Below are positions 38,769 to 58,331 of a stretch of 64,000 nucleotides of DNA, piece after piece. This DNA is from Poseidonibacter lekithochrous (GTDB taxonomy: Bacteria > Campylobacterota > Campylobacteria > Campylobacterales > Arcobacteraceae). The translations under genes were made by a program, and so were the position numbers. Below the pieces are notes generated by a model. It had not been told where the DNA came from. It was given only the letters and a program-made list of their open reading frames with translations, and did not search any database. Every line of letters begins with the position of its first letter. Position 1 is the first letter of the stretch. Location of the stretch: NCBI RefSeq assembly GCF_013283835.1, contig NZ_CP054052.1, forward strand, positions 3,348,001 through 3,412,000. The letters run 5' to 3'.

Positions 38769-39626
38769 ATGAAAATAAATACAAATATTGCTTCATTAGC
38801 AGCACAAGAAGCAAATACTAATACGAATAATAAGTTAACAAACTCTTTATCAAAATTGTCATCAGGACTTAGAATAAATAAAGCTTCTGATGATGCTTCT
38901 GGGTTAGCTATTGCTGATAAGTTAAGAACTCAAGCAAGCTCAATTGGTCAAGCAATTTCAAATGGTAATTCTGCTGTTGCAATGATGCAAATTGCTGATA
39001 AAGCTATGGCTGAGCAATCTAATATTTTAGATATTGTAAAAACTAAACTTATTCAAGCTGCCACTGATACAACGTCAGAAGAAGGTAGAACAGCTATTGG
39101 TAAAGATGTTGATAAATTGTTAAATCAATTAAATAATATTGCTGAGCAAACAAATTACAATGGAACTACTTTACTTCAAGGAGCAACATCTGCTTCAGCT
39201 GCAGCAACATTAACATTCCAAATGGGTGAAACAAGTAGTGACACAATTGGTTCAACAGGTGGAGTAAGATCAAATGTTTCAGGATTAACACTTGAAGCAC
39301 TACAGTCTGCTGCAGCAAGTGGTGGAACAACTGCATTTACAGCTGTAGCCGCTAGAGGATTCCTTGATGATATAGATAGCGCACTTAATACACTAAATGG
39401 ATGGAGAGCAGACTTCGGGTCAACTCAAAACCAATTAGAGTCAGCTGTTAGAAACCAAATGACTCAGCAAACTAATATTAAAGCTGCTGAATCTGTTATT
39501 AGAGATGTTGATTACGCAGCTGAATCGGCTAACTTCAATAAATTAAATATTATTTCACAAGCAGGTACTTATGCAATGAGTCAAGCTAATAATGTTCAAC
39601 AAAATGTTACAAGATTACTTCAATAA
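38769..39626 (+). CDS. Flagellin 1 (divergent first member)
   Basis: A 285-residue flagellin. The N-terminal D0/D1 helices (MKINTNIASLAAQEANTN, LSSGLRINKASDDASGLAIA) and C-terminal D1/D0 helices (SVIRDVDYAAESANFNK, QNVTRLLQ) pair to build the filament core. The middle is short and Ala/Ser/Thr/Gly-rich, so no large D2/D3 domain exists. It differs from the other eleven at several fixed sites (MKINT, AAQEANTN, AMMQIADK, KLNIIS), has no conserved leader and ends in TAA followed by a strong terminator. AAGGTCAG precedes the ATG, so it is an independent unit. Confidence 0.96.
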   Translation: MKINTNIASLAAQEANTNTNNKLTNSLSKLSSGLRINKASDDASGLAIADKLRTQASSIGQAISNGNSAVAMMQIADKAMAEQSNILDIVKTKLIQAATDTTSEEGRTAIGKDVDKLLNQLNNIAEQTNYNGTTLLQGATSASAAATLTFQMGETSSDTIGSTGGVRSNVSGLTLEALQSAAASGGTTAFTAVAARGFLDDIDSALNTLNGWRADFGSTQNQLESAVRNQMTQQTNIKAAESVIRDVDYAAESANFNKLNIISQAGTYAMSQANNVQQNVTRLLQ

Positions 39627-39649
39627 CAATATTAAACTATTAATACTAG

Positions 39650-39684
39650 AAAAAGGTTGGATATTTATTCAACCTTTTTTTATT
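39650..39684 (+). terminator. Terminator after flagellin 1
   Basis: AAAAAGGTTG pairs with CAACCTTTTTTT around a 10-nt AT-rich loop. The T-run is good. It isolates flagellin 1 from the array downstream. Confidence 0.9.
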
Positions 39685-39751
39685 TCTCTATTTTGTTTAA
39701 TCTAATATTAAGAATTGGTGTGTAATAATTACATCATGCCTTATAGGAATT

Positions 39752-39849
39752 AATTGATTCCGAAGAGTGGTTAACTCTATGCTCAATAAAATGAGAATGT
39801 TTTCAGGCTCCCGTGTCAGGGTAAATCTTTTAATATAAAAGGATTTATT
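39752..39849 (+). promoter_or_regulatory. Structured flagellin leader, copy 1 (type A)
   Basis: Hairpin 1 is AGAGT-GGTTA-ACTCT, hairpin 2 CTCA-ATAAAA-TGAG, hairpin 3 CCC-GTGTCA-GGG. The final AAATCTTTT pairs with AAAAGGATTT, which holds the ribosome-binding site of flagellin 2. GATT at the 5' end can pair with the same AAATC, giving an alternative fold. The block CCGAAG, TATGC and AGGCTCCCG is fixed in all copies. Confidence 0.8.
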
Positions 39850-40707
39850 ATGAGAATTAATACAAACGTTGCTTCACTTAATGCAAGAGAAGCTGCAACA
39901 AATACTAACAACAACCTTCAAAGCTCTTTAGAGAAATTAAGTTCTGGTCTTAGAATCAATAAAGCATCAGACGATGCATCAGGTTTAGCAATTGCTGATA
40001 AATTAAGAACTCAAGCTAGCTCTATTGGTCAATCAATCTCAAATGGTAATTCTGCTGTTTCTTTAACACAAATCGCTGATAAAGCTATGGCTGAACAATC
40101 TAATATTTTAGATATCGTTAAAACTAAACTTGTTCAAGCTGCTACTGATACTACTTCAGAAGAAGGTAGAACTGCAATTGGTAAAGATATAGATAAATTG
40201 TTAACTCAATTAAATAATATTTCTAGCCAAACAAATTATAATGGTACTACTTTATTAGAGTCTTCTACAGGAACTAGTGCAACGGCATTAACATTCCAAA
40301 TGGGTGAAACTGCTACAGATATTATTCAAACAACAGCTGGTGTTAAATCTAATGTTTCTGGTTTAGGATTAGAAGCTATTAAATCAGGTGCCGCTTCTGG
40401 TGGTACTGCTGCTGCGTTTAGTGCGGGTGCAGCAAGAGGATATATGGCAACTGTTGATACAGCATTAAATACGCTAAATGGATGGAGAGCGGACTTCGGT
40501 TCTACTCAAAATCAATTAGAGTCAGCTGTTAGAAACCAAATGACTCAGCAAACTAATATTAAAGCTGCTGAATCTGTTATTAGAGATGTTGATTACGCAG
40601 CTGAATCTGCTAATTTCAACAAACAGAACATTATTGCTCAAGCTGGTACTTATGCTATGAGTCAAGCTAATGCTGTTCAACAAAACGTTACTAGATTACT
40701 TCAATAA
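39850..40707 (+). CDS. Flagellin 2 (subtype A)
   Basis: A 285-residue flagellin of subtype A: N-terminus VASLNAREAATNTNNNLQSS and C-terminus QANAVQQNVTRLLQ. The middle (about residues 130-205) reads STGTSATALTFQMGETATD and on, with many Ser and Thr that could carry glycans. Stop codon TAA. It has its own leader and its own terminator, so it can be expressed as a single-gene unit. Confidence 0.96.
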   Translation: MRINTNVASLNAREAATNTNNNLQSSLEKLSSGLRINKASDDASGLAIADKLRTQASSIGQSISNGNSAVSLTQIADKAMAEQSNILDIVKTKLVQAATDTTSEEGRTAIGKDIDKLLTQLNNISSQTNYNGTTLLESSTGTSATALTFQMGETATDIIQTTAGVKSNVSGLGLEAIKSGAASGGTAAAFSAGAARGYMATVDTALNTLNGWRADFGSTQNQLESAVRNQMTQQTNIKAAESVIRDVDYAAESANFNKQNIIAQAGTYAMSQANAVQQNVTRLLQ

Positions 40708-40715
40708 TTTAGTTT

Positions 40716-40742
40716 AAGTAATACTTTTTAGTATTACTTTTA
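40716..40742 (+). terminator. Terminator after flagellin 2
   Basis: AAGTAATACT (40716-40725), loop TTTT, AGTATTACTT (40730-40739), then TTAA. A 10-bp perfect stem directly after the gene. Confidence 0.8.
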
Positions 40743-40838
40743 ACGTTTTATAATATAACGAGATTTATACAAATAGTATTTAGTAATTTATATTCGTATT
40801 TAGGGATAAGAGATTGGAACACTTTTAATTTAGGGGTC

Positions 40839-40936
40839 AATGGATTCCGAAGAAAGCTCTCTTTCTATGCTCAATAACATGAGAATGTTTCAGGCTCCCG
40901 CGTCAGGGTAAATCTTTTAATATAAAAGGATTTATT
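40839..40936 (+). promoter_or_regulatory. Structured flagellin leader, copy 2 (type B)
   Basis: Here hairpin 1 is AGAAAG-CTCT-CTTTCT, a different sequence with the same shape as type A. Hairpin 2 is CTCA-ATAACA-TGAG and hairpin 3 CCC-GCGTCA-GGG. The 5' end reads CAATGGATTCC, adding a GGA. The anti-ribosome-binding-site hairpin is unchanged. Upstream, GTATTTAGGGATAAGAG and TTGGAACACTTTT are conserved among type-B copies and may contain the promoter. Confidence 0.8.
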
Positions 40937-41791
40937 ATGAGAATTAATACAAATGTTGCCTCTTTAAATTCACAAGAGAGTGCAACAAACACACAAAACA
41001 ACTTAAGAAGCTCATTAGAGAAATTAAGTTCGGGATTGAGAATTAATAAAGCTAGTGATGATGCTTCTGGTTTAGCAATTGCTGATAAACTAAGAACTCA
41101 AGCTAATTCTATTGGTCAATCAATTTCAAATGGTAATTCGGCTGTTGCTTTAACGCAAATCGCTGATAAAGCTATGGCTGAGCAGTCTAATATAATTGAT
41201 ATTGTTAAAACTAAACTTATCCAAGCTGCTACAGATACTACTTCTAATGAAGGTAGAAAAGCAATTGGTAAAGATATTGATAAATTAATGGATCAATTAA
41301 ATAATATTGCAACACAAACGAACTATAATGGTACAACACTATTAGCTGGTGCCGCAGGACAATCTGCTAATAATCTTACATTCCAAATGGGTGAGACAAG
41401 TAATGATACTATTGCAACTACTTCAGGAGTAAGAGCAACTGTTTCAGGTTTATCATTAAGTGGATTACAATCAGGTGTTACTACTGGACTATCAGCAGAT
41501 TTTACTGCTGCAGGTGCAAGAGGATTCCTTGATGATGTAGATAGCGCATTAAATACACTAAATGGATGGAGAGCGGACTTCGGTTCTACTCAAAATCAAT
41601 TAGAGTCAGCTGTTAGAAACCAAATGACTCAGCAAACTAATATTAAAGCTGCTGAATCTGTTATTAGAGATGTTGATTACGCAGCGGAGTCTGCTAACTT
41701 CAATAAACAAAACATTATTGCTCAAGCTGGTACTTATGCTATGAGTCAATCAAATGCCACACAACAAAATGTTTTAAGATTACTTCAATAG
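40937..41791 (+). CDS. Flagellin 3 (subtype B)
   Basis: A 284-residue flagellin of subtype B: N-terminus VASLNSQESATNTQNNLRSS and C-terminus QSNATQQNVLRLLQ. Its middle reads AAGQSANNLTFQMGETSND. One unique change is NIIDIVK where the others have NILDIVK. Stop codon TAG lies in the loop of a perfect hairpin. Confidence 0.96.
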   Translation: MRINTNVASLNSQESATNTQNNLRSSLEKLSSGLRINKASDDASGLAIADKLRTQANSIGQSISNGNSAVALTQIADKAMAEQSNIIDIVKTKLIQAATDTTSNEGRKAIGKDIDKLMDQLNNIATQTNYNGTTLLAGAAGQSANNLTFQMGETSNDTIATTSGVRATVSGLSLSGLQSGVTTGLSADFTAAGARGFLDDVDSALNTLNGWRADFGSTQNQLESAVRNQMTQQTNIKAAESVIRDVDYAAESANFNKQNIIAQAGTYAMSQSNATQQNVLRLLQ

Positions 41792-41801
41792 AAGTAATCT
41801 T
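41776..41801 (+). terminator. Stop-codon hairpin of flagellin 3
   Basis: AAGATTACTT-CAATAG-AAGTAATCTT: a perfect 10-bp stem whose loop holds the TAG stop. No U-run follows, so it may be a stabiliser or weak terminator. The same hairpin ends all type-B genes. Confidence 0.65.
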
Positions 41802-41818
41802 GGCATTTCATTTCAGAT

Positions 41819-41852
41819 CAATTCTTAATATTTAATCTAATATTAAGAATTG
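41819..41852. repeat. Inverted repeat upstream of flagellin 4
   Basis: CAATTCTTAATATT (41819-41832) and AATATTAAGAATTG (41839-41852) are perfect complements around TAATCT. The right arm is conserved before type-A genes and abuts the conserved TGTGTAATAAT, a possible -10. The arm pairing may be terminator-like or an operator. Confidence 0.55.
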
Positions 41853-41884
41853 GTGTGTAATAATAATATGATACCTATTAGGAA

Positions 41885-41985
41885 TTAATTGATTCCGAAG
41901 AGTGGTTAACTCTATGCTCAATAAAATGAGAATGTTTTTAGGCTCCCGTGTCAGGGTAAATCTTTTCAAGTAAAAAGGATTTATT
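41885..41985 (+). promoter_or_regulatory. Structured flagellin leader, copy 3 (type A)
   Basis: Hairpin 1 AGAGT-GGTTA-ACTCT and hairpin 2 CTCA-ATAAAA-TGAG as in copy 1. The loop of the last hairpin is changed to CAAGT while both pairing arms (AAATCTTTT and AAAAGGATTT) are kept, which supports that pairing. Confidence 0.8.
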
Positions 41986-42834
41986 ATGAGAATTAATACA
42001 AATGTTGCTTCACTTAATGCAAGAGAAGCTGCAACAAATACTAACAACAACCTTCAAAGCTCTTTAGAGAAATTAAGTTCTGGTCTTAGAATCAATAAAG
42101 CTTCTGATGATGCATCAGGTTTAGCAATTGCTGATAAACTAAGAACTCAAGCTAATTCTATTGGACAATCAATCTCAAATGGTAATTCGGCTGTTGCTTT
42201 AACGCAAATCGCTGATAAAGCTATGGCTGAACAATCTAATATTTTAGATATCGTTAAAACTAAACTTATTCAAGCTTCAACTGATACTACTTCAGATGAA
42301 GGTAGAGCTGCAATTGGTAAAGATGTTGATAAATTGTTAGCGCAATTAAATAACATTGCTGAGCAAACAAATTATAATGGTACTAAACTTTTAGAAGGTG
42401 CAAACTCAGCTGCTGCTGCAACTGCATTAACATTCCAAATGGGTGAAACTGCTTCTGATACAATTGCAACTGCTGCTGGAGTTCAGTCTACTACAACAGG
42501 TTTAACTTTAGATACATTATCAGTTTCTGCTGCTGCAGGATTTGCATCTGCAGGTTCAGCAAGAGCATTCTTAGATGATGTAGATAGTGCATTAAATACA
42601 CTAAATGGATGGAGAGCGGACTTCGGTTCTACTCAAAACCAATTAGAGTCAGCTGTTAGAAACCAAATGACTCAGCAAACTAATATTAAAGCTGCTGAAT
42701 CTGTTATTAGAGATGTTGATTACGCAGCTGAATCTGCTAATTTCAACAAACAGAACATTATTGCTCAGGCTGGTACTTATGCTATGAGTCAAGCTAATGC
42801 TGTTCAACAAAATGTTACGAGATTATTACAATAA
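41986..42834 (+). CDS. Flagellin 4 (subtype A)
   Basis: A 282-residue subtype A flagellin. Its middle reads GANSAAAATALTFQMGETASD and TTTGLTLDTLSVSAAAGF. The SVSAAAGFASAGSARAF part resembles the equivalent region of flagellins 7 and 8. Stop codon TAA. No type-B gene follows it, unlike other A genes; a hairpin related to type-B 3' ends lies about 60 bp downstream. Confidence 0.96.
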   Translation: MRINTNVASLNAREAATNTNNNLQSSLEKLSSGLRINKASDDASGLAIADKLRTQANSIGQSISNGNSAVALTQIADKAMAEQSNILDIVKTKLIQASTDTTSDEGRAAIGKDVDKLLAQLNNIAEQTNYNGTKLLEGANSAAAATALTFQMGETASDTIATAAGVQSTTTGLTLDTLSVSAAAGFASAGSARAFLDDVDSALNTLNGWRADFGSTQNQLESAVRNQMTQQTNIKAAESVIRDVDYAAESANFNKQNIIAQAGTYAMSQANAVQQNVTRLLQ

Positions 42835-42893
42835 TATTTATTAGTTTTTTAATAAATTAAAATATTGTATAAAATTCACTTAACTACTAATTT

Positions 42894-42919
42894 AAGATTA
42901 CTTCTAAAGAAGTAGTCTT
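42894..42919 (+). pseudogene. Hairpin relic of a lost type-B flagellin 3' end
   Basis: AAGATTACTTC-TAAA-GAAGTAGTCTT differs at few positions from the stop-codon hairpin of the type-B genes (AAGATTACTT-CAATAG-AAGTAATCTT) but no flagellin precedes it. Its place, where a B gene is expected in the A-B alternation, suggests it is what remains after a deletion. It may still act as the terminator of flagellin 4. Confidence 0.5.
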
Positions 42920-42935
42920 AATTATAAGAAAAATG

Positions 42936-42972
42936 ATATAGGAATTTTTAATCAAATTAAGAATTTCTATAT
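42936..42972. repeat. Inverted repeat upstream of flagellin 5
   Basis: ATATAGGAATTTTTAAT pairs with ATTAAGAATTTCTATAT at 15 of 17 positions around a 3-nt loop. The right arm shares ATTAAGAATT with the repeats before other type-A genes, while the flanks differ. Confidence 0.5.
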
Positions 42973-42999
42973 TATTTTAAATAATATAATATAGGTATC

Positions 43000-43096
43000 A
43001 ATGGATTCCGAAGAGGGTAACCTCTATGCTTGTTGAAACAAGAATGTCTTAAGGCTCCCGTGTCAGGGTAAATCTTTTAAAATAAAAGGATTTATT
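43000..43096 (+). promoter_or_regulatory. Structured flagellin leader, copy 4 (variant)
   Basis: A third solution for the same fold: hairpin 1 AGAGG-GTAA-CCTCT, with a GNRA loop, and hairpin 2 CTTGT-TGAA-ACAAG. The 5' end is CAATGGATTCC as in type B. The final hairpin is AAATCTTTT with AAAAGGATTT around AAAAT. The independent changes on both sides of each stem are strong evidence for the structure. Confidence 0.82.
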
Positions 43097-43951
43097 ATGA
43101 GAATCAATACAAATATTGCCTCTATGCAAGCCAGAGAGGCTGCAACAAATACAAATAATAATCTATCAAGCTCTTTAGAGAAACTAAGTTCTGGTCTTAG
43201 AATCAATAAAGCTTCTGATGATTCATCTGGTTTATCAATTGCTGATAAACTAAGAACGCAAGCAAGTTCTATTGGACAATCAATCTCAAATGGTAACTCT
43301 GCTGTTGCTTTAACACAAATCGCTGATAAAGCTATGGCTGAGCAATCTAATATTTTAGATATTGTTAAAACTAAACTTATCCAAGCTGCTACAGATACTA
43401 CTTCAGATGAAGGTAGAAATGCAATTGGTAAAGATATTAATAAATTATTAACACAATTAAATAATATCTCTAGTCAGACAAACTACAATGGTACTACCTT
43501 ATTAGAAGGTGCCAGTGCAGGAGATTCTGCTGCTGCATTAACATTCCAAATGGGTGAAGCTAGTACAGATACAATTGTAACAGCAGGAACAGTAAGATCA
43601 AATACTGGAGGTTTAGCGTTAAGTGGACTTAAAGATGACGCATCAGGTGGAGCTGCAAACTTAAGTGCAGCAGCATCAAGAGCTTATCTTGATGATGTAG
43701 ATACAGCACTTAACACACTAAATGGATGGAGAGCGGACTTCGGGTCAACTCAAAACCAATTAGAGTCAGCTGTTAGAAACCAAATGACTCAGCAAACTAA
43801 TATTAAAGCTGCTGAATCTGTTATTAGAGATGTTGATTACGCAGCTGAATCTGCTAATTTCAACAAACAGAACATTATTGCTCAAGCTGGTACTTATGCT
43901 ATGAGTCAAGCTAATGCTGTTCAACAAAATGTTACGAGATTATTACAATAG
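43097..43951 (+). CDS. Flagellin 5 (subtype A variant)
   Basis: A 284-residue A-like flagellin with some unique positions: IASMQAREAATN, LSSS where most A genes have LQSS, and DDSSGLSIAD. Its C-terminus is standard type A. The middle reads GASAGDSAAALTFQMGEASTD and GGLALSGLKDDASGGAANLS. Stop codon TAG. It is directly followed by the type-B promoter region of flagellin 6. Confidence 0.96.
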   Translation: MRINTNIASMQAREAATNTNNNLSSSLEKLSSGLRINKASDDSSGLSIADKLRTQASSIGQSISNGNSAVALTQIADKAMAEQSNILDIVKTKLIQAATDTTSDEGRNAIGKDINKLLTQLNNISSQTNYNGTTLLEGASAGDSAAALTFQMGEASTDTIVTAGTVRSNTGGLALSGLKDDASGGAANLSAAASRAYLDDVDTALNTLNGWRADFGSTQNQLESAVRNQMTQQTNIKAAESVIRDVDYAAESANFNKQNIIAQAGTYAMSQANAVQQNVTRLLQ

Positions 43952-44013
43952 TATTTAGAAATTTTGTATTCGTATTTAGGGATAAGAGATTGGAACACTT
44001 TTAATTTAGGGGT

Positions 44014-44112
44014 CAATGGATTCCGAAGAAAGCTCTCTTTCTATGCTCAATAACATGAGAATGTTTCAGGCTCCCGCGTCAGGGTAAATCTTTTAATATA
44101 AAAGGATTTATT
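44014..44112 (+). promoter_or_regulatory. Structured flagellin leader, copy 5 (type B)
   Basis: Nearly identical to copy 2 (hairpin 1 AGAAAG/CTTTCT, hairpin 2 CTCA/TGAG, hairpin 3 CCC-GCGTCA-GGG, and the ribosome-binding-site hairpin). The conserved upstream TTGGAACACTTTT is present. Only about 60 bp separate the flagellin 5 stop from this leader. Confidence 0.8.
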
Positions 44113-44976
44113 ATGAGAATTAATACAAATGTTGCTTCTTTAAATTCACAAGAGAATGCAACAAGCACACAAAACAACTTAAGAAACTCATTAGAGAAAT
44201 TAAGTTCGGGATTGAGAATTAATAAAGCTAGTGATGATGCTTCTGGTTTAGCAATTGCTGATAAACTAAGAACTCAAGCTAATTCTATTGGTCAATCAAT
44301 CTCAAATGGTAATTCGGCTGTTGCTTTAACGCAAATCGCTGATAAAGCTATGGCTGAGCAATCTAATATTTTAGATATTGTTAAAACTAAACTTATCCAA
44401 GCTGCTACTGATACTACTTCGCAAGAAGGTAGAGAAGCAATTGGTAAGGATGTTAGTAAATTATTAGATCAAATTAATAATATTGCTAGTCAAACAAACT
44501 ATAATGGAACTACATTATTACAAGCTGATGCTACAATAAGTGGAGCAGCAGGAACAGCATTAACATTTCAGATGGGTGAAACTACTAATGATACAATTAC
44601 AACTACAGCAGGAGTAAGATCAAATGCATCTGGGCTTGACCTTACAGCATTAAAGTCTGCTGCAGCAAGTGGAACATCTGCTGTATTTGATGCAGCTGCA
44701 TCTAGAGGTTATATGGCAGCTGTTGATACAGCATTAAATACGCTAAATGGATGGAGAGCGGACTTCGGTTCTACTCAAAATCAATTAGAGTCAGCTGTTA
44801 GAAACCAAATGACTCAGCAAACTAATATTAAAGCTGCTGAATCTGTTATTAGAGATGTTGATTACGCAGCGGAGTCTGCTAACTTCAATAAACAAAATAT
44901 TATTGCTCAAGCTGGTACGTATGCTATGAGTCAATCAAATGCCACACAACAAAATGTTTTAAGATTACTTCAATAG
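44113..44976 (+). CDS. Flagellin 6 (subtype B)
   Basis: A 287-residue subtype B flagellin, the longest in the array. The N-terminus has QENATSTQNNLRNS, shared with flagellin 8. Its middle reads QADATISGAAGTALTFQMGETTND and ASGLDLTALKSAAASG. Ends in the type-B C-terminus and stop-codon hairpin. Confidence 0.96.
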   Translation: MRINTNVASLNSQENATSTQNNLRNSLEKLSSGLRINKASDDASGLAIADKLRTQANSIGQSISNGNSAVALTQIADKAMAEQSNILDIVKTKLIQAATDTTSQEGREAIGKDVSKLLDQINNIASQTNYNGTTLLQADATISGAAGTALTFQMGETTNDTITTTAGVRSNASGLDLTALKSAAASGTSAVFDAAASRGYMAAVDTALNTLNGWRADFGSTQNQLESAVRNQMTQQTNIKAAESVIRDVDYAAESANFNKQNIIAQAGTYAMSQSNATQQNVLRLLQ

Positions 44977-44986
44977 AAGTAATCTT
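44961..44986 (+). terminator. Stop-codon hairpin of flagellin 6
   Basis: Same 10-bp stem with the TAG in its loop as after flagellin 3. Confidence 0.65.
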
Positions 44987-45069
44987 GGCATTTCATTTCA
45001 GATCAATTTTTATTACATTTAATCTAAAATTAAGAATTGGTGTGTAATAATAACATTATGCCTTATAGG

Positions 45070-45171
45070 AATTAATTGATTCCGAAGAGTGGTTAACTCT
45101 ATGCTTGTTGAAACAAGAACATTTTTAGGCTCCCGTGTCAGGGTAAATCTTTTAATATAAAAGGATTTATT
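45070..45171 (+). promoter_or_regulatory. Structured flagellin leader, copy 6 (type A)
   Basis: Hairpin 1 AGAGT-GGTTA-ACTCT is the type-A form, but hairpin 2 is CTTGT-TGAA-ACAAG as in copy 4, so the hairpins have been exchanged between copies as units. The final hairpin is unchanged. Confidence 0.8.
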
Positions 45172-46023
45172 ATGAGAATTAATACAAACGTTGCTTCACT
45201 TAATGCAAGAGAAGCTGCAACAAATACTAACAACAACCTTCAAAGCTCTTTAGAGAAATTAAGCTCTGGTCTTAGAATCAATAAAGCTTCTGATGATGCA
45301 TCAGGTTTAGCAATTGCTGATAAATTAAGAACTCAAGCTAGCTCTATTGGTCAATCAATCTCAAATGGTAATTCAGCTGTTGCTTTAACGCAAATTGCTG
45401 ATAAAGCTATGGCTGAACAATCTAATATTTTAGATATTGTTAAAACTAAACTTATTCAAGCTGCTACTGATACTACTTCAGATGAAGGTAGAGCTGCAAT
45501 TGGTAAAGATGTTAATAAATTATTAAGTCAATTAGATAATATTGCTAAACAAACAAATTATAATGGTACTGAATTATTACAAGCATCAGCAGCTGATACA
45601 GGTGCTGGAACTGCATTAACATTCCAAATGGGTGAAAATGCTGCTGACATAATTGCAACTACGGCTGGTGTTCAGTCTAATACTGTTGGATTAGGTTTAG
45701 CAAGTGCACAAGCTTCTGCTGCTGCAGGATTTGCATCTGCTGGTTCAGCAAGAGCACTTTTAGTTGATGTAGATAGTGCATTAAATACACTAAATGGATG
45801 GAGAGCAGACTTCGGGTCAACTCAAAACCAATTAGAGTCAGCTGTTAGAAACCAAATGACTCAGCAAACTAATATTAAAGCTGCTGAATCTGTTATTAGA
45901 GATGTTGATTACGCAGCGGAGTCTGCTAATTTCAACAAACAGAACATTATTGCTCAAGCTGGTACTTATGCTATGAGTCAAGCTAATGCTGTTCAACAAA
46001 ATGTTACGAGATTATTACAATAG
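45172..46023 (+). CDS. Flagellin 7 (subtype A)
   Basis: A 283-residue subtype A flagellin. From about residue 95 to 215 it is the same as flagellin 8 (TSDEGRAAIGKDVNKLLSQL, then ASAADTGAGTALTFQMGENA and on), while the N- and C-termini are of type A. Near the 3' end GCGGAGTCT is type-B-like and AATTTCAACAAACAG is type-A-like, so the gene is a mosaic. Stop codon TAG. Confidence 0.96.
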   Translation: MRINTNVASLNAREAATNTNNNLQSSLEKLSSGLRINKASDDASGLAIADKLRTQASSIGQSISNGNSAVALTQIADKAMAEQSNILDIVKTKLIQAATDTTSDEGRAAIGKDVNKLLSQLDNIAKQTNYNGTELLQASAADTGAGTALTFQMGENAADIIATTAGVQSNTVGLGLASAQASAAAGFASAGSARALLVDVDSALNTLNGWRADFGSTQNQLESAVRNQMTQQTNIKAAESVIRDVDYAAESANFNKQNIIAQAGTYAMSQANAVQQNVTRLLQ

Positions 46024-46084
46024 TATTTAGAAATTTTGTATTCGTATTTAGGGATAAGAGATTGAAACACTTTTAATTTAGGGG

Positions 46085-46184
46085 TCAATGGATTCCGAAG
46101 AAAGCTCTCTTTCTATGCTCAATAACATGAGAATGTTTCAGGCTCCCGCGTCAGGGTAAATCTTTTAATATAAAAGGATTTATT
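46085..46184 (+). promoter_or_regulatory. Structured flagellin leader, copy 7 (type B)
   Basis: Type-B form as in copy 2. Upstream, the TTGGAACAC element has become TTGAAACAC, which would weaken a promoter or operator there. Confidence 0.8.
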
Positions 46185-47036
46185 ATGAGAATTAATACAA
46201 ATGTTGCTTCTTTAAATTCACAAGAGAATGCAACAAGCACACAAAACAACTTAAGAAACTCATTAGAGAAATTAAGTTCGGGATTGAGAATTAATAAAGC
46301 TAGTGATGATGCTTCTGGTTTAGCAATTGCTGATAAACTAAGAACTCAAGCTAATTCTATTGGTCAATCAATCTCAAATGGTAATTCGGCTGTTGCTTTA
46401 ACGCAAATCGCTGATAAAGCTATGGCTGAGCAATCTAATATTTTAGATATTGTTAAAACTAAACTTGTTCAAGCTGCTACTGATACTACTTCAGATGAAG
46501 GTAGAGCTGCAATTGGTAAAGATGTTAATAAATTATTAAGTCAATTAGATAATATTGCTAAACAAACAAATTATAATGGTACTGAATTATTACAAGCATC
46601 AGCAGCTGATACAGGTGCTGGAACTGCATTAACATTCCAAATGGGTGAAAATGCTGCTGACATAATTGCAACTACGGCTGGTGTTCAGTCTAATACTGTT
46701 GGATTAGGTTTAGCAAGTGCACAAGCTTCTGCTGCTGCAGGATTTGCATCTGCTGGTTCAGCAAGAGCACTTTTAGTTGATGTAGATAGTGCATTAAATA
46801 CACTAAATGGATGGAGAGCGGACTTCGGTTCTACTCAAAATCAATTAGAGTCAGCTGTTAGAAACCAAATGACTCAGCAAACTAATATTAAAGCTGCTGA
46901 ATCTGTTATTAGAGATGTTGATTACGCAGCGGAGTCTGCTAACTTCAATAAACAAAATATTATTGCTCAAGCTGGTACTTATGCTATGAGTCAGTCGAAT
47001 GCTATACAACAAAATGTTACAAGATTACTTCAATAG
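46185..47036 (+). CDS. Flagellin 8 (subtype B)
   Basis: A 283-residue subtype B flagellin at the N-terminus (QENATSTQNNLRNS). Its middle is the same as in flagellin 7. The C-terminus is intermediate: QSNAIQQNVTRLLQ combines type-B QSNA with type-A VTRLLQ. Ends in the stop-codon hairpin. Confidence 0.96.
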   Translation: MRINTNVASLNSQENATSTQNNLRNSLEKLSSGLRINKASDDASGLAIADKLRTQANSIGQSISNGNSAVALTQIADKAMAEQSNILDIVKTKLVQAATDTTSDEGRAAIGKDVNKLLSQLDNIAKQTNYNGTELLQASAADTGAGTALTFQMGENAADIIATTAGVQSNTVGLGLASAQASAAAGFASAGSARALLVDVDSALNTLNGWRADFGSTQNQLESAVRNQMTQQTNIKAAESVIRDVDYAAESANFNKQNIIAQAGTYAMSQSNAIQQNVTRLLQ

Positions 47037-47046
47037 AAGTAATCTT
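47021..47046 (+). terminator. Stop-codon hairpin of flagellin 8
   Basis: Same 10-bp stem with the TAG in its loop as after flagellin 3, kept although the coding end was altered to VTRLLQ. Confidence 0.65.
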
Positions 47047-47055
47047 GGCATTTCA

Positions 47056-47107
47056 TTACACACCAATTCTTTAATATTTTAATCTAATATTAAGAATTGG
47101 TGTGTAA
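47056..47107. repeat. Large palindrome upstream of flagellin 9
   Basis: A left arm of 23 nt starting TTACACACCAATTC and a right arm of 22 nt ending GAATTGGTGTGTAA are complementary with one bulged T, around TTAATCT. It is the most complete version of the inverted repeat before type-A genes, where only the right arm is otherwise constant. It covers the possible promoter region. Confidence 0.7.
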
Positions 47108-47129
47108 TAATAACATTATGCCTTATAGG

Positions 47130-47232
47130 AATTAATTAATTCCGAAGAGTGGTTAACTCTATGCTTGGTGAAACAAGAACGTTTTTAGGCTCCCGTGTCA
47201 GGGTAAATCTTTTCAAGTAAAAAGGATTTATT
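47130..47232 (+). promoter_or_regulatory. Structured flagellin leader, copy 8 (type A)
   Basis: Hairpin 1 AGAGT-GGTTA-ACTCT, hairpin 2 CTTG-GTGAAA-CAAG. The 5' end is AATTCC where most copies have GATTCC, which weakens pairing with AAATC. The loop of the last hairpin is CAAGT as in copy 3. Confidence 0.8.
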
Positions 47233-48093
47233 ATGAGAATTAATACAAACGTTGCTTCACTTAATGCAAGAGAAGCTGCAACAAATACTAACAACAACCT
47301 TCAAAGCTCTTTAGAGAAATTAAGTTCTGGTCTTAGAATCAATAAAGCATCAGATGATGCTTCTGGACTTTCTATCGCTGATAAATTAAGAACTCAAGCT
47401 AGTTCTATTGGACAATCAATCTCAAATGGTAATTCTGCTGTTTCTTTAACGCAAATTGCGGATAAAGCTATGGCTGAGCAATCTAATATTTTAGATATCG
47501 TTAAAACTAAACTTATTCAAGCTTCAACTGATACTACATCTAATGAAGGTAGAAAAGCAATTGGTAAAGATATTGATAAATTAATGGATCAATTGAATAA
47601 CATTGCAAAACAGACAAACTACAATGGTACTACATTATTACAAGCAACTTCAACAAGTACAGACTCTGCTGGAAAACTTACATTCCAAATGGGAGAAACA
47701 GCTACAGATATTATTGAAACAAAATCTGGAGTAACTTCAAATACTTCTGGATTATTAGTAGATGATATTCAATCAGCTGTAGCAACAGGATTATCAGCTG
47801 ACTTTGATGCAACTGCAGCTAGAGGTTTTCTTGATGATATAGATACAGCACTTAACACACTAAATGGATGGAGAGCGGACTTCGGGTCAACTCAAAACCA
47901 ATTAGAGTCAGCTGTTAGAAACCAAATGACTCAGCAAACTAATATTAAAGCTGCTGAATCTGTTATTAGAGATGTTGATTACGCAGCTGAATCTGCTAAT
48001 TTCAACAAACAGAACATTATTGCTCAAGCTGGTACTTATGCTATGAGTCAAGCTAATGCTGTTCAACAAAATGTTACGAGATTATTACAATAG
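47233..48093 (+). CDS. Flagellin 9 (subtype A)
   Basis: A 286-residue subtype A flagellin with GLSIADKL like flagellins 5 and 11. Its middle, ATSTSTDSAGKLTFQMGETATD and SGLLVDDIQSAVATGLSADF, partly resembles flagellin 3 (TGLSADFTA). Stop codon TAG. Confidence 0.96.
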   Translation: MRINTNVASLNAREAATNTNNNLQSSLEKLSSGLRINKASDDASGLSIADKLRTQASSIGQSISNGNSAVSLTQIADKAMAEQSNILDIVKTKLIQASTDTTSNEGRKAIGKDIDKLMDQLNNIAKQTNYNGTTLLQATSTSTDSAGKLTFQMGETATDIIETKSGVTSNTSGLLVDDIQSAVATGLSADFDATAARGFLDDIDTALNTLNGWRADFGSTQNQLESAVRNQMTQQTNIKAAESVIRDVDYAAESANFNKQNIIAQAGTYAMSQANAVQQNVTRLLQ

Positions 48094-48154
48094 TATTTAG
48101 AAATTTTGTATTCGTATTTAGGGATAAGAGATTGGAACACTTTTAATTTAGGGG

Positions 48155-48254
48155 TCAATGGATTCCGAAGAAAGCTCTCTTTCTATGCTCAATAACATGA
48201 GAATGTTTCAGGCTCCCGCGTCAGGGTAAATCTTTTAATATAAAAGGATTTATT
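48155..48254 (+). promoter_or_regulatory. Structured flagellin leader, copy 9 (type B)
   Basis: Type-B form as in copy 2, with the intact TTGGAACACTTTT element upstream. Confidence 0.8.
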
Positions 48255-49115
48255 ATGAGAATTAATACAAATGTTGCCTCTTTAAATTCACAAGAGAGTG
48301 CAGCTAACACACAAAACAACTTAAGAAGCTCATTAGAGAAATTAAGTTCGGGATTGAGAATTAATAAAGCTAGTGATGATGCTTCTGGTTTAGCAATTGC
48401 TGATAAACTAAGAACTCAAGCTAATTCTATTGGTCAATCAATTTCAAATGGTAATTCGGCTGTTGCTTTAACGCAAATCGCTGATAAAGCTATGGCTGAG
48501 CAATCTAATATTTTAGATATTGTTAAAACTAAACTTGTTCAAGCTAGTACTGATACTACTTCACAAGAAGGTAGAGATGCTATTGGTAAAGATATTACAA
48601 AGCTATTAGGTCAGTTAAATAATATTGCTAGTCAAACAAACTATAATGGAACAGAATTGTTACAAGCTTCTGAAGCAAGTACTGCATCAGGAACTGCATT
48701 AACATTCCAAATGGGTGAAAACCTAGCAGATACTATTGCAACAACTGCAGGTGTTCAATCTAACACTGTTGGATTAGCTTTAAGTGCTCTTAAAGATGCA
48801 GCTTCAGCTGGAACAACTACAGGATTTAGTGCTGGAGATACAAGAGGTTTCATGGCAACTGTTGATACAGCATTAAATACGCTAAATGGATGGAGAGCGG
48901 ACTTCGGTTCTACTCAAAATCAATTAGAGTCAGCTGTTAGAAACCAAATGACTCAGCAAACTAATATTAAAGCTGCTGAATCTGTTATTAGAGATGTTGA
49001 TTACGCAGCGGAGTCTGCTAACTTCAATAAACAAAATATTATTGCTCAAGCTGGTACTTATGCTATGAGTCAATCAAATGCCACACAACAAAATGTTTTA
49101 AGATTACTTCAATAG
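48255..49115 (+). CDS. Flagellin 10 (subtype B)
   Basis: A 286-residue subtype B flagellin with QESAANTQNNLRSS. Its middle reads ASEASTASGTALTFQMGENLAD and VGLALSALKDAASAGTTTGF. Ends in type-B C-terminus QSNATQQNVLRLLQ and the stop-codon hairpin. Confidence 0.96.
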   Translation: MRINTNVASLNSQESAANTQNNLRSSLEKLSSGLRINKASDDASGLAIADKLRTQANSIGQSISNGNSAVALTQIADKAMAEQSNILDIVKTKLVQASTDTTSQEGRDAIGKDITKLLGQLNNIASQTNYNGTELLQASEASTASGTALTFQMGENLADTIATTAGVQSNTVGLALSALKDAASAGTTTGFSAGDTRGFMATVDTALNTLNGWRADFGSTQNQLESAVRNQMTQQTNIKAAESVIRDVDYAAESANFNKQNIIAQAGTYAMSQSNATQQNVLRLLQ

Positions 49116-49125
49116 AAGTAATCTT
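49100..49125 (+). terminator. Stop-codon hairpin of flagellin 10
   Basis: Same 10-bp stem with the TAG in its loop as after flagellin 3. Confidence 0.65.
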
Positions 49126-49209
49126 GGCATTTCATTTTAGATCAATTTTTAAATTATTTTAATCTAATTTTAAGAATTGGTGTGTAATAATAACATTATG
49201 CCTTATAGG

Positions 49210-49311
49210 AATTAATTAATTCCGAAGAGTGGTTAACTCTATGCTTGGTGAAACAAGAACGTTTTTAGGCTCCCGTGTCAGGGTAAATCTTTTAATATAA
49301 AAGGATTTATT
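49210..49311 (+). promoter_or_regulatory. Structured flagellin leader, copy 10 (type A)
   Basis: Same as copy 8 (AATTCC start, hairpin 2 CTTG-GTGAAA-CAAG) except that the last loop is AATAT, so single segments have been exchanged between copies. Confidence 0.8.
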
Positions 49312-50163
49312 ATGAGAATTAATACAAACGTTGCTTCACTTAATGCAAGAGAAGCTGCAACAAATACTAACAACAACTTATCAAGCTCTTTAGAGAAATT
49401 AAGTTCTGGTCTTAGAATCAATAAAGCTTCTGATGATGCTTCTGGTCTTTCTATCGCTGATAAATTAAGAACTCAAGCTAGTTCTATTGGACAATCAATC
49501 TCAAATGGTAATTCGGCTGTTGCTTTAACGCAAATCGCTGATAAAGCTATGGCTGAGCAATCTAATATTTTAGATATTGTTAAAACGAAACTTATCCAAG
49601 CTGCTACTGATACTACATCTGATGATGGTAGAAAAGCAATTGGTAAAGATATCAATAAATTATTAAGTCAGTTAAATAATATTGCTGAACAAACTAATTA
49701 TAATGGTACTAAACTTTTAGAAGGTGCAAATTCTGGTGCTGCTGCTGGTCAGCTTACATTCCAAATGGGTGAAAATTCTGCGGATACTATTCAGACAGCA
49801 ACAGGTGTACAGTCGACAACAACTGGTTTAGCATTAGATACAATTACAGATGATGTAATAGTTTCTGCAACTTTTGATGCAGCTTATGCAAGAGCATCAC
49901 TTGATGATGTTGACAGTGCATTAAATACACTAAATGGATGGAGAGCGGACTTCGGTTCTACTCAAAATCAATTAGAGTCAGCTGTTAGAAACCAAATGAC
50001 TCAGCAAACTAATATTAAAGCTGCTGAATCTGTTATTAGAGATGTTGATTACGCAGCGGAGTCTGCTAATTTCAACAAACAGAACATTATTGCTCAAGCT
50101 GGTACTTATGCTATGAGTCAAGCTAATGCTGTTCAACAAAATGTTACGAGATTATTACAATAG
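49312..50163 (+). CDS. Flagellin 11 (subtype A)
   Basis: A 283-residue subtype A flagellin with LSSS and GLSIADKL. Its middle (TSDDGRKAIGKDINKLL, GANSGAAAGQLTFQMGENSAD, TITDDVIVSATFDAAYARAS) differs from that of flagellin 12 at only one residue (LALDT versus LTLDT). Near the 3' end GCGGAGTCT is type-B-like. Stop codon TAG. Confidence 0.96.
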   Translation: MRINTNVASLNAREAATNTNNNLSSSLEKLSSGLRINKASDDASGLSIADKLRTQASSIGQSISNGNSAVALTQIADKAMAEQSNILDIVKTKLIQAATDTTSDDGRKAIGKDINKLLSQLNNIAEQTNYNGTKLLEGANSGAAAGQLTFQMGENSADTIQTATGVQSTTTGLALDTITDDVIVSATFDAAYARASLDDVDSALNTLNGWRADFGSTQNQLESAVRNQMTQQTNIKAAESVIRDVDYAAESANFNKQNIIAQAGTYAMSQANAVQQNVTRLLQ

Positions 50164-50224
50164 TATTTAGAAATTTTGTATTCGTATTTAGGGATAAGAG
50201 ATTGAAACACTTTTAATTTAGGGG

Positions 50225-50324
50225 TCAATGGATTCCGAAGAAAGCTCTCTTTCTATGCTCAATAACATGAGAATGTTTCAGGCTCCCGCGTCAGGGTAAA
50301 TCTTTTAATATAAAAGGATTTATT
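50225..50324 (+). promoter_or_regulatory. Structured flagellin leader, copy 11 (type B)
   Basis: Type-B form as in copy 2. The upstream element reads TTGAAACAC as before copy 7. Confidence 0.8.
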
Positions 50325-51176
50325 ATGAGAATTAATACAAATGTTGCCTCTTTAAATTCACAAGAGAGTGCAGCTAACACACAAAACAACTTAAGAAGCT
50401 CATTAGAGAAATTAAGTTCGGGATTGAGAATTAATAAAGCTAGTGATGATGCTTCTGGTTTAGCAATTGCTGATAAACTAAGAACTCAAGCTAATTCTAT
50501 TGGTCAATCAATTTCAAATGGTAATTCGGCTGTTGCTTTAACGCAAATCGCTGATAAAGCTATGGCTGAGCAATCTAATATTTTAGATATTGTTAAAACT
50601 AAACTTATCCAAGCTGCTACTGATACTACATCTGATGATGGTAGAAAAGCAATTGGTAAAGATATCAATAAATTATTAAGTCAGTTAAATAATATTGCTG
50701 AACAAACTAATTATAATGGTACTAAACTTTTAGAAGGTGCAAATTCTGGTGCTGCTGCTGGTCAGCTTACATTCCAAATGGGTGAAAATTCTGCGGATAC
50801 TATTCAGACAGCAACAGGTGTACAGTCGACAACAACTGGTTTAACACTAGATACAATTACAGATGATGTAATAGTTTCTGCAACTTTTGATGCAGCTTAT
50901 GCAAGAGCATCTCTTGATGATGTTGACAGTGCATTAAATACACTAAATGGATGGAGAGCGGACTTCGGTTCTACTCAAAATCAATTAGAGTCAGCTGTTA
51001 GAAACCAAATGACTCAGCAAACTAATATTAAAGCTGCTGAATCTGTTATTAGAGATGTTGATTACGCAGCGGAGTCTGCTAACTTCAATAAACAAAATAT
51101 TATTGCTCAGGCTGGTACTTATGCTATGAGTCAATCAAATGCCACACAACAAAATGTTTTAAGATTACTTCAATAG
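50325..51176 (+). CDS. Flagellin 12 (subtype B, last of the array)
   Basis: A 283-residue subtype B flagellin. N-terminus QESAANTQNNLRSS as in flagellin 10; middle nearly identical to flagellin 11; type-B C-terminus QSNATQQNVLRLLQ. It closes the array and is followed 95 bp later by the Maf glycosyltransferase gene. Confidence 0.96.
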   Translation: MRINTNVASLNSQESAANTQNNLRSSLEKLSSGLRINKASDDASGLAIADKLRTQANSIGQSISNGNSAVALTQIADKAMAEQSNILDIVKTKLIQAATDTTSDDGRKAIGKDINKLLSQLNNIAEQTNYNGTKLLEGANSGAAAGQLTFQMGENSADTIQTATGVQSTTTGLTLDTITDDVIVSATFDAAYARASLDDVDSALNTLNGWRADFGSTQNQLESAVRNQMTQQTNIKAAESVIRDVDYAAESANFNKQNIIAQAGTYAMSQSNATQQNVLRLLQ

Positions 51177-51271: not shown

Positions 51272-53245
51272 ATGCAAGAAGAAATCGAAGAATTTAACCA
51301 AACACTACTAAATCTTTATTTTAATAATCTTAATTTTCTTAAAGAAAACCATCCACAAATTTTTGAAAAAGTTAATAAGTTATCTGATAACATTGAAAAA
51401 GGAATCCACAAGGAGAAGTATTCATTAGAATATAAAACTGAAGGATACTTTGATATTCTAAATATAGAGTCAAATGAATTTATTTATGGATTTAACAGTT
51501 ATGATGAAGCTGATAAAAGAGCAAATATAACAAATTTTACGAAACATCACTCTTTAGATTTATTAAGAGTTGAACCAACAACAAATAAATTTGCATTAAT
51601 GGGTTCTCATGGAGCAACAGTTCATTTAGTTGATTATCTAAATAAAAAAATTGATTTTGAAAATATAACTTTTTCAAAGATTTATAAATATATCTTTATA
51701 GGTGTTGGTGTTGGTGTTCATGTTCATGAGATCTATAAAAAAATTGACTCAATGAATACTTTAATAATTGAACCAAGTACTGAATTATTTAGGCTTAGTT
51801 TATTTACAACAGATTATTCTATATTTGAACAAGGAAACAAAAAACTGTTTTTATCTATTGGAGAAACAGAAGTTCAAAGAGAATATACATTAAGTACATT
51901 TACTGCTTATCATTCATATATGAACTATAATATTAAACATCATTTATTCTGGATTGATTATGAATATATCTTAGATGAAATTATAGGTTTTTATTCTCAT
52001 AATCATGCAGGGGCATTCTCATTTAATAGTATATTACAGGTGTTTTCACGAACATTAGAATTTATGCATGAAAAAGAAAACTTCTTACAAAAAAGTTTAA
52101 TAGAAGAACATACACCTTTAAAAAATAAAAAAGTTTTACTAATTAGTGGAGGACCTTCTGTTGATAATCATATAGATTGGATATATGAGAATCAAGATAA
52201 ATTTATAATTATCTGTGTAGATGTAATTCTTAAAAAATTAGAAAAACATAAAGTTATTCCAGATATTGTAGTATCTATTGATCCATCACATTTAGTTGCA
52301 GAGTTCTTTAAAACAGAAGATGAAAATTTCTTAGAAAATAGTGCAATTATTTTCTTATCTCAACAAGATGAGACTGTATTAAATACTGTTAAGCACTTAA
52401 ATGTTTACTTTTCACAAGTTTATTACATTTCTAAAAAAATTGGATACGCAATGTCTTTAGCAAATGTTGGTACATTCTCCCTTGCAATGGGATTACTACT
52501 AGATGCTAATGAACTATATTTAATTGGTAGTGATGCAGCCTTTGAGCAAGAAACAGGAAATAGATATGCAAAAGATAGTGGACATACACATGTTGATGAA
52601 CATAAAGAGTCAGAAAAAAATGAAAATGAAAAAAATACAATTTCTTTTACTGATGTTATTGAAGTAAAAGGGAATCTAACAGATACAGTTAAAACAAATA
52701 GAGATTTATTTACATTCAAAAAAGATTATGAAGCATTTCTTCATACTGTAGTAAATGAAAAAGAATTTAAAGCATATAACCTTTCAGATGGAGCATATAT
52801 AGAAGGACTAATTCCTTTAAATATTGAAGATATTAATATTGAAGATTCTCAAAGAAAAGAGTTTAATATAAAAGAAGTTATTGATAGTATTTCAATCAAT
52901 GATATTGATGATATTGACTTTGAAGACGATATTAAAATTATAAATAGAATAATAAAAAAAGTAACAAAATATAAAAAAGTAAAGATTTCTTCTAAAAATA
53001 ATTTCTTAGAATCTAAATTAGATATTATGATATGGATTTTAGAACAAAATAAAATTATGTCAAGTGGAATATTTGGAAATATATTCCTAAAGTATATTGA
53101 ATTAATTGATATTTATATTAACTTCACATTAAATTTAGAACAAAGAGAATTAAATACTCCAAAAAATCTTGCTCAAATTAGAGATTATTGGTGTGATTCT
53201 TTAGTTGACTTACTAAAAAATATTAAAAAAGCAGTAAGTAAATAA
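51272..53245 (+). CDS. Motility accessory factor (Maf/DUF115) flagellin glycosyltransferase
   Basis: A 657-residue Maf protein. The central DUF115 domain begins near residue 286 with KKVLLISGGPSVDNHIDWIY and contains PDIVVSIDPSHLVAEFF, IIFLSQQDETV and NVGTFSLAMGLLLDANELYLIGSD. The N-terminal part holds YIFIGVGVGVHVHEIYKK, as in Maf proteins. Maf enzymes transfer pseudaminic or legionaminic acid from the CMP-sugar to Ser/Thr of flagellin in the cytoplasm. The position just after twelve flagellins and facing a nonulosonate operon supports this. A probable extended -10 (TGTACAAT) lies about 30 bp upstream, so it can be expressed without the flagellins. Confidence 0.92.
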   Translation: MQEEIEEFNQTLLNLYFNNLNFLKENHPQIFEKVNKLSDNIEKGIHKEKYSLEYKTEGYFDILNIESNEFIYGFNSYDEADKRANITNFTKHHSLDLLRVEPTTNKFALMGSHGATVHLVDYLNKKIDFENITFSKIYKYIFIGVGVGVHVHEIYKKIDSMNTLIIEPSTELFRLSLFTTDYSIFEQGNKKLFLSIGETEVQREYTLSTFTAYHSYMNYNIKHHLFWIDYEYILDEIIGFYSHNHAGAFSFNSILQVFSRTLEFMHEKENFLQKSLIEEHTPLKNKKVLLISGGPSVDNHIDWIYENQDKFIIICVDVILKKLEKHKVIPDIVVSIDPSHLVAEFFKTEDENFLENSAIIFLSQQDETVLNTVKHLNVYFSQVYYISKKIGYAMSLANVGTFSLAMGLLLDANELYLIGSDAAFEQETGNRYAKDSGHTHVDEHKESEKNENEKNTISFTDVIEVKGNLTDTVKTNRDLFTFKKDYEAFLHTVVNEKEFKAYNLSDGAYIEGLIPLNIEDINIEDSQRKEFNIKEVIDSISINDIDDIDFEDDIKIINRIIKKVTKYKKVKISSKNNFLESKLDIMIWILEQNKIMSSGIFGNIFLKYIELIDIYINFTLNLEQRELNTPKNLAQIRDYWCDSLVDLLKNIKKAVSK

Positions 53246-53267
53246 GTAGAATTTTTTCTACTTATTT
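53240..53267. terminator. Bidirectional terminator between maf and the glycan operon
   Basis: AAATAAGTAGAA (53240-53251), loop TTTT, TTCTACTTATTT (53256-53267): a perfect 12-bp stem. The stop codons of both convergent genes lie in the stem. Confidence 0.88.
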
Positions 53268-53788
53268 AAAAGTCCATATAGTAAAATATCTACATACTTA
53301 CCATTTTTAAACATAGCCTCTTTTTGATGACCTTCTTTTTCCATTCCTAACTTAAGTGCTAACTTTTGCATAGGAGTATTTTCACTACTTGTACCACAGT
53401 AAACTCTATGTAGATTCAAAGTGGTAAAAGCATGATTGATTATCAAACTAGCCGCCTCATAAGCTAAACCTTTTCCATGATAGCCAGTTTCACCCATTAC
53501 AATTGCAAATTCAGCACAAGAATCAATATAATTTATATTTTGAATACTAATATTACCTATATGTGTATTATCTTCTTTATAACAAACTGCTAAAACCAAG
53601 TTTGTATTAGAATTATTTACACTATCAATATATGATTTAGTTTTTTCTTTAGTATTTACAAATCTATGATGAGCATTATATTTACAAACTTCGGCATCAT
53701 TTAACCAATTTACATAGTTACCATTTAAATCATTTTCATTTAATGCTCTAAGATAAACTTGTTCACCTTCAATAAAAATATCTTTCAC
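53258..53788 (-). CDS. GNAT acetyltransferase (RimL-like), last gene of glycan operon
   Basis: A 176-residue GNAT protein. It starts VYLRALNENDLNGNYVNWLND, typical of RimJ/RimL-like enzymes, and has GETGYHGKGLAYEAASLIINHAF with the acetyl-CoA pyrophosphate loop (G-x-x-G-x-G-x-A) and LNLHRVYCGTSSENTPMQKLALKLG. In this context it more likely acetylates a sugar amine than a ribosomal protein. The start is a GTG that overlaps the upstream stop as GTGA. It is paralogous in type, but not in close sequence, to the GNAT at 59078-59608. Confidence 0.85.
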   Translation of the reverse strand: MKDIFIEGEQVYLRALNENDLNGNYVNWLNDAEVCKYNAHHRFVNTKEKTKSYIDSVNNSNTNLVLAVCYKEDNTHIGNISIQNINYIDSCAEFAIVMGETGYHGKGLAYEAASLIINHAFTTLNLHRVYCGTSSENTPMQKLALKLGMEKEGHQKEAMFKNGKYVDILLYGLLNK

Positions 53789-55996: not shown

Positions 55997-56005
55997 TTTT
56001 AATCC

Positions 56006-57699: not shown

Positions 57700-57707
57700 T
57701 TTAAACC

Positions 57708-58331
57708 TTAGTTAGTTTTTTCTAATAAGAACCAAGAGATATCATCTTGATGGAAATTATTATCTCGGTGGTAAGCAAAACCATAATCAACTAATCGTAA
57801 GTCTTCATATTTATCAAGTAATTCTCCAGCAAAATCTCTTTTAAATAGTTTTCCTTCATGACCTCTATAATTTACCTCAACTGGTGTTGGGTTATAGTAT
57901 TCTGCCACTAAGATATATTTACTACTTGTTTCATACAACTTCTTATATACAGCATCTAAGTACTCAGGATTAATATGAATTAAAACAACTTTTGTAAATA
58001 CTAAATCTCTTTTTTCTTTACATTCAAAATCAAAAATTGACTCATTATGAATAGTATTAAGGAAATTTAGTTTTTCTAAACTTGTACAAGCTTCTTTGTT
58101 TATTTCAATAGCAGAATATTTTGCAGATGGAAGTAATTGATTTAAAGCTAATAAGTTTAATCCTATATTTGCCCCAAACTCAATAACACTATTAATATTA
58201 TGTGTTCTATCTAATACTTTTGAGAAAAAGTTAATATTGTTTTTTACTCTATCATAACTATTTCTCTTTATATATTCACTTCCCCATTCATTTGATGCCC
58301 AAAACTCTTCTTGTTCAGTTTTTAAACTCAT
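57708..58331 (-). CDS. SAM-dependent methyltransferase of the pseudaminic acid-associated type
   Basis: A 207-residue methyltransferase. The N-terminus TEQEEFWASNEWGSEYIKRN matches the small family found in pseudaminic and legionaminic acid loci. The SAM-binding region is INSVIEFGANIGLNLLALNQL, then YSAIEINKEACTSLEKL and DLVFTKVVLIHINPEYLDAV. It would O- or N-methylate the sugar or its carrier form. I chose the ATG at 58331 because AGGAG lies about 6 nt upstream; longer versions add residues with no family match. It sits between the two SpsF-type genes. Confidence 0.85.
   Translation of the reverse strand: MSLKTEQEEFWASNEWGSEYIKRNSYDRVKNNINFFSKVLDRTHNINSVIEFGANIGLNLLALNQLLPSAKYSAIEINKEACTSLEKLNFLNTIHNESIFDFECKEKRDLVFTKVVLIHINPEYLDAVYKKLYETSSKYILVAEYYNPTPVEVNYRGHEGKLFKRDFAGELLDKYEDLRLVDYGFAYHRDNNFHQDDISWFLLEKTN

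Follow-up and report, generated by a model that had tools for sequence, protein, structure and literature searches.

The eleven near-identical leaders in a flagellin gene array of Poseidonibacter lekithochrous raise the question of whether they form a genuine RNA structure and, if so, what this RNA does. In the window, i.e. the whole stretch of 64,000 nucleotides that was analysed (contig NZ_CP054052.1, positions 3,348,001 to 3,412,000), 12 flagellin genes lie in tandem (38769-51176), and the leader precedes genes 2-12 and is absent from gene 1 (Table 1). Flagellin 2 was tested with the Pfam models PF00669 and PF00700; PF00669 is found at 14 places in the genome. Two flagellin types (NAREAATNTNNNL, NSQESATNTQNNL) alternate in two- or three-gene units, and this arrangement together with the near-identical leaders suggests repeated duplication and gene conversion. 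Downstream of the flagellins (51272-63747) there are genes for a Maf-type glycosyltransferase, NeuB, cytidylyltransferases and a DegT aminotransferase, likely a locus for flagellin glycosylation (nonulosonate).

Table 1 Flagellin genes, leader RNAs and associated elements in the window. E-values refer to matches with the covariance model R2; SD, Shine-Dalgarno sequence.
Feature	Position	Strand	Details
Flagellin 1 (MKINTN...)	38769..39626	+	60-nt short leader, element absent
Promoter-like block before flagellin 2	39690..39735 (approximate)	+	contains TTTAATCTAATATTAAGAATTGGTGTGTAATAATTAC, extended -10 TGTAATAAT
Flagellin 2 leader	39746..39849	+	E 1.2e-16 at 39744-39801
Flagellin 2 leader, P1	39746-39761	+	GGAATT-AATT-GATTCC
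Flagellin 2 leader, GA link	39762-39763	+
Flagellin 2 leader, P2	39764-39778	+
Flagellin 2 leader, AUG link	39779-39781	+
Flagellin 2 leader, P3	39782-39795	+
Flagellin 2 leader, P4	39810-39821	+	CCC/GGG
Flagellin 2 leader, predicted SD hairpin	39823-39846	+	AAATCTTTT/AAAAGGATTT
Flagellins 2-12 behind leaders	39850..51176	+	starts 39850, 40937, 41986, 43097, 44113, 45172, 46185, 47233, 48255, 49312, 50325
Flagellin 3 leader (operon-internal type)	40831..40936	+	E 2.4e-15; P1 GGGGTC/GATTCC, P2 AGAAAG/CTTTCT, P3 CTCA/TGAG
Flagellin 4 leader	41879..41985	+	E 1.2e-16
Flagellin 5 leader	42992..43096	+	E 2.3e-16; P2 AGAGG/CCTCT, P3 CTTGT/ACAAG
Flagellin 6 leader	44007..44112	+	E 2.4e-15
Flagellin 7 leader	45066..45171	+	E 2.4e-15
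Flagellin 8 leader	46079..46184	+	E 2.4e-15
Flagellin 9 leader	47126..47232	+	E 2.5e-17; P1 GGAATT/AATTCC
Flagellin 10 leader	48149..48254	+	E 2.4e-15
Flagellin 11 leader	49206..49311	+	E 2.5e-17
Flagellin 12 leader	50219..50324	+	E 2.4e-15

The preliminary description of this locus had proposed a covarying structured leader with fixed sequence blocks and three hairpins. Indeed, all 11 leaders carry the blocks CCGAAG, TATGC, AGGCTCCCG and CAGGGTAAATC without any variation, and AGGCTCCCGNGTCAGGGTAAATC, when up to three mismatches are allowed, occurs exactly 11 times genome-wide, each time at this locus, as compared to zero occurrences of the reversed control. The first two hairpins, which we refer to as P2 and P3, covary in the way described, with AGAGT/ACTCT, AGAGG/CCTCT and AGAAAG/CTTTCT in P2 and CTCA/TGAG, CTTGT/ACAAG and CTTG/CAAG in P3. 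All three hairpins are present, but a further conserved hairpin located just 5' of the first, P1, had been missed, and the third one, which corresponds to a variable stem in other genomes (P4), is found only as CCC/GGG in the window genome. Beyond these hairpins, another one is predicted over the SD of the window leaders. The 11 copies are tandem duplicates in about seven distinct versions, and since such recent duplicates are not independent, they are weak evidence if taken alone; therefore, evidence was sought in other genomes. Single-sequence folding of the leaders is unremarkable and only slightly better than that of shuffled sequences (z -0.9 to -1.6).

A covariance model built from nine leaders (R1) gave matches across Arcobacteraceae, and a second model (R2), based on 26 diverse sequences and including P1, was used with a cutoff of E<=0.001. 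R2 matches were present in 76 of 104 Arcobacteraceae genomes, covering 15 of 20 genera, most of them with one leader copy per genome, and Flagellin_N was present in 92 of the 104. RNA and flagellin occurred together in 75 genomes and were both missing in 11, while one genome had the RNA only and 17 had flagellin only, i.e. 75 of the 76 R2-positive genomes carry flagellin (Fisher p 1e-6). Those of the 17 that were tested for CsrA also lack CsrA. When the model was searched across the order, all R2 matches with E<1e-9 in the sample of 399 genomes fell into Arcobacteraceae. Of the weak matches outside the family (best E 5e-4), the 11 that were inspected look chance-like: they lie mostly inside coding frames and none of them before a flagellin gene. 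Several of these fall into a gene with the reading VYGSMLDYLR, identified in one genome (G056) as the sigma-28 gene. An exact 21-base block of the window had no match in a scan of genome contigs, a looser pattern matched ten contigs, and no leader pattern was found in the viral contigs scanned.

Some genomes of the family deviate from the usual arrangement. One copy of the leader core has no flagellin behind it and might be an orphan or a recombination remnant (L152:603-800, G033), and another leader precedes the remnant of a broken flagellin gene, the genome in question having no scored flagellin (L176, G008:C4:7660-7715). In genus g2 (L168, L171; G010, G125), the flagellins have a similar promoter block and short leaders and the RNA is absent; as an outgroup, this genus is useful for determining when the leader RNA was gained or lost.

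For a description of the structure, 95 leaders upstream of flagellin starts were parsed, using the sequences CC[GA]A, TGCT and AA as anchors and, wherever these were ambiguous, choosing the better-pairing one, which biases P2 and P3 slightly towards pairing. In these leaders, P1 comprises 6 bp (GGNNNN-RAUK-NNNNCC) and is followed by a GA or AA link, P2 has at least 4 bp and a length of 12-28 nt and is followed by an AUG linker, and P3 has 4 bp, a length of 14-29 nt, a loop that is mostly GURANA and, in some cases, an extended arm. After P3 there is an AANGU linker, then P4 and then a tail. P4, which was located by a best-hairpin search that is less strict than the core parse, differs in sequence between lineages with its pairing kept (CCC/GGG in the window and GTGA/TCAC, GTAAAC/GTTTAC, TGCAATT/AATTGCA or TCCTG/CAGGA in others).

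In the alignment of 26 sequences, 97.3% of the helix cells are paired, compared to 86.5% in shuffled and 36-48% in slid controls, and double changes are found at 11 of 16 pairs. The decisive structural evidence comes from the other genomes. Among 81 distinct cores with a total of 1296 helix cells, 97.5% of these cells are paired, and the summed covariation G of the proposed pairs amounts to 539, as opposed to a maximum of 94 in 300 runs of a phylogeny-aware null. This null is home-made on the principle of R-scape and not the R-scape program; it preserves both the tree and the types of substitution and is restricted to the core, since the tail is poorly aligned and adds too much noise. Based on this null, 10 of the 11 variable core pairs reach E<0.05. 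Moreover, the 81 cores contain 157 G.U cells compared to three A.C cells, from which we conclude that the structure resides on the mRNA strand, i.e. in the sense RNA. P3 is only moderately stable in single-sequence folds (mean pair probability 0.46). The proposal of a covarying structured leader RNA is thus borne out by helix pairing and phylogeny-aware covariation across other genomes, and the RNA family itself is firmly supported. With a conserved, covarying structure on the mRNA strand and a consistent place directly upstream of one gene type, flagellin, the element has the hallmarks of a cis-regulatory leader.

The family does not correspond to a known class, as had been presumed: Rfam 15 gave no match at or above the gathering score in the window, no match over 12 diverse leader loci apart from an unrelated 5S rRNA, and, in permissive scans of three leaders with E up to 10, no riboswitch match and chance-level families only. 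In an intergenic screen that covered the genome of Arcobacter sp. L, most of the candidates confined to Arcobacter received no name, and neither flagellin nor flagella are mentioned in its main text (PMC6429828); the flagellin leader region may be among these unnamed motifs. As judged by Rfam 15 and by the open literature that could be searched, the leader family is previously uncatalogued.

A promoter-like block (TTTAATCTAA-TTTTAAGAATTGGTRTGTMATAATT) is common across Arcobacteraceae. Besides flagellin 2, it precedes flagellins 4, 7, 9 and 11 in the window and is missing before 3, 5, 6, 8, 10 and 12, and terminator-like stems are located behind genes 1, 3, 6, 8 and 10. The leader is also found before apparently operon-internal flagellins, and this speaks against a function confined to the 5' end of the mRNA.

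Between the core and the gene, a hairpin is predicted at the translation start. In most genera, UCAUAAU matches AUUAUGA, which includes the start codon, as its complement, with the SD in the predicted loop, and the start codon of this majority type is paired to 0.94, compared to 0.63 when the upstream sequence is shuffled. For the species of the window and its closest allies, AAAUCUUUU is predicted to pair with AAAAGGAUUU, covering the SD itself, which is paired to 0.93 as compared to 0.53 after shuffling. Two different pairings are thus predicted to occlude the same start region, which suggests control at the level of translation. However, UCAUAAU resembles an extended -10 element (TGTCATAAT) that recurs in the upstream promoter-like block, and its conservation may therefore have a promoter cause. 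Since we did not recognise a conserved alternative pairing that opens the start hairpin in the leaders, a switch step is unsupported; a pairing of P1 with GGGTAAATC, considered as an anti-sequestering stem, amounts to only about four pairs in the window genome and is not conserved. Where flagellins start with MIINTN, as seen for L040 of G111 and for L041, L042 and L051-L053 of genus g1, their leaders have (A/T)CGTCAT in place of GTGTCAT, and the start-site pairing of these leaders gains a G.U pair.

Structured leaders acting in cis on flagella are known from the c-di-GMP riboswitch classes, which the Arcobacteraceae leader resembles in this respect and from which it differs in architecture and by the lack of an Rfam riboswitch match. 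In Caulobacter, the 5' untranslated region of the flagellin mRNA is read by FlbT/FlaF, which are alphaproteobacterial proteins, and a protein-read Arcobacteraceae leader would be comparable in this respect. The flagellin leader of Campylobacter jejuni (flaA) is read by the protein CsrA (PMC4894983), and the CsrA-FliW leaders (C. jejuni flaA, B. subtilis hag) have in common with the Arcobacteraceae leader the presence of hairpins in the flagellin mRNA leader, stems that covary in relatives (PMC4894983) and one GGA/SD in the start-site loop, which is predicted as AAAGGA in the Arcobacteraceae majority type; they act on flagellin at the level of translation, and the Arcobacteraceae leader probably does so as well. 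In contrast, the CsrA-FliW leader is only 45 nt long, compared to about 100 nt with the different P1-P3 architecture, and is transcribed from a sigma-28 instead of a sigma-70-like promoter. CsrA-FliW leaders are characterised by two or more GGA motifs in hairpin loops, with one of them over the SD; apart from the AAAGGA in the predicted start-hairpin loop of the majority type, no second conserved loop GGA was seen in P1-P3.

CsrA itself, which a leader of this type would involve, was found in none of the 37 sampled family genomes (the window genome and 36 others), compared to 18 of 23 sampled relatives, and the same numbers apply to sigma-28 over the cutoff (0/37 vs 18/23). The window genome has no sigma-54 (RpoN), and neither do most of the sampled family members. 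The same regulator losses have been reported before (PMC9321776, PMC2147049), and the possibility of an entirely new regulatory system has been raised (PMC2147049). Part of the family has FliW, but several of the genomes that carry the RNA lack it, which rules FliW out as an obligatory partner.

From these results we slightly favour a cis-acting flagellin-leader RNA on which a trans factor, most likely a protein, shifts access to the start site. The leader would consist of the consecutive hairpins P1, P2 and P3 with the fixed linkers GA, AUG and AANGU, a variable P4 and the start-site hairpin; an RNA-binding protein reporting flagellar assembly or flagellin level might bind P1-P3 and thereby alter access to the start site, so that flagellin translation would be set by the leader in a lineage without sigma-28 and CsrA and mostly without sigma-54. 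Control of flagellin translation by the leader is likely on the basis of the predicted occlusion. Of the initial wording, a candidate riboswitch or RNA regulator, the latter part fits and nothing points to a small ligand: the row of consecutive hairpins, the variable P2 and P3, flagellins as sole targets, the C. jejuni leader being read by a protein and the absence of CsrA and sigma-28 from the lineage all point more to a protein-read RNA. The escape of flagellin 1 from the element speaks against the favoured model, as do the 17 flagellin-bearing family genomes that gave no R2 match, the only moderate stability of P3 in single-sequence folds and the possible promoter cause of the UCAUAAU conservation.

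The leader could also be constitutive, with P1-P3 stabilising a very abundant mRNA, offering ribosomes a standby site or enhancing translation in the absence of any switching. Flagellin is produced in great quantity, hairpins in a row can shield mRNA from RNases, and no alternative fold was found; however, the linkers CC[GA]A, AUG and AANGU are conserved beyond what stability needs, the element is not confined to 5' ends, and the predicted occlusion of the start site, which exceeds the chance level, would be odd for an enhancer, and we thus regard this explanation as rather unlikely. Less likely still is a small-molecule riboswitch acting on translation, e.g. for a cyclic dinucleotide: conserved unpaired linkers beside conserved stems are followed by a start-site hairpin, and the absence from Rfam leaves room for a new class, but we detected neither a multi-helix junction nor a pseudoknot or a closing stem, P2 and P3 vary widely in length, and the element is restricted to flagellin genes and to one bacterial family.

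That the leader mainly serves as a titrating RNA or a cleaved small RNA, acting on other flagellar mRNAs or sequestering a regulator, is improbable. The C. jejuni flaA leader does antagonise CsrA (PMC4894983), and eleven copies in one genome would yield much RNA, but CsrA is missing here and most genomes have a single copy. Mechanisms at the level of DNA palindromes (operator), transcription attenuation or a leader peptide are the least probable, although P1 can be a perfect palindrome (GGAATCAATTGATTCC) and the conserved AUGC block contains an AUG: the excess of G.U over A.C cells and the variation in hairpin length are signs of an RNA, the window leaders do not end in a terminator-like site, and the frames starting from the AUG have 3-41 codons, fall into all three frames, mostly lack an SD and are conserved neither in frame nor in length. 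Terminator and leader-peptide control are thus not supported.

Returning to the protein-read leader, a more far-reaching version, which we regard as plausible and yet put forward only tentatively, is that an RNA-level checkpoint replaced sigma-28 and CsrA, with the new leader family coupling flagellin translation to flagellum assembly; the reader might then be an RNA-binding protein, or flagellin or an export chaperone itself. The control of flagellin in Arcobacteraceae has been a standing question since 2007, and the structured leader provides a concrete molecular handle on it.
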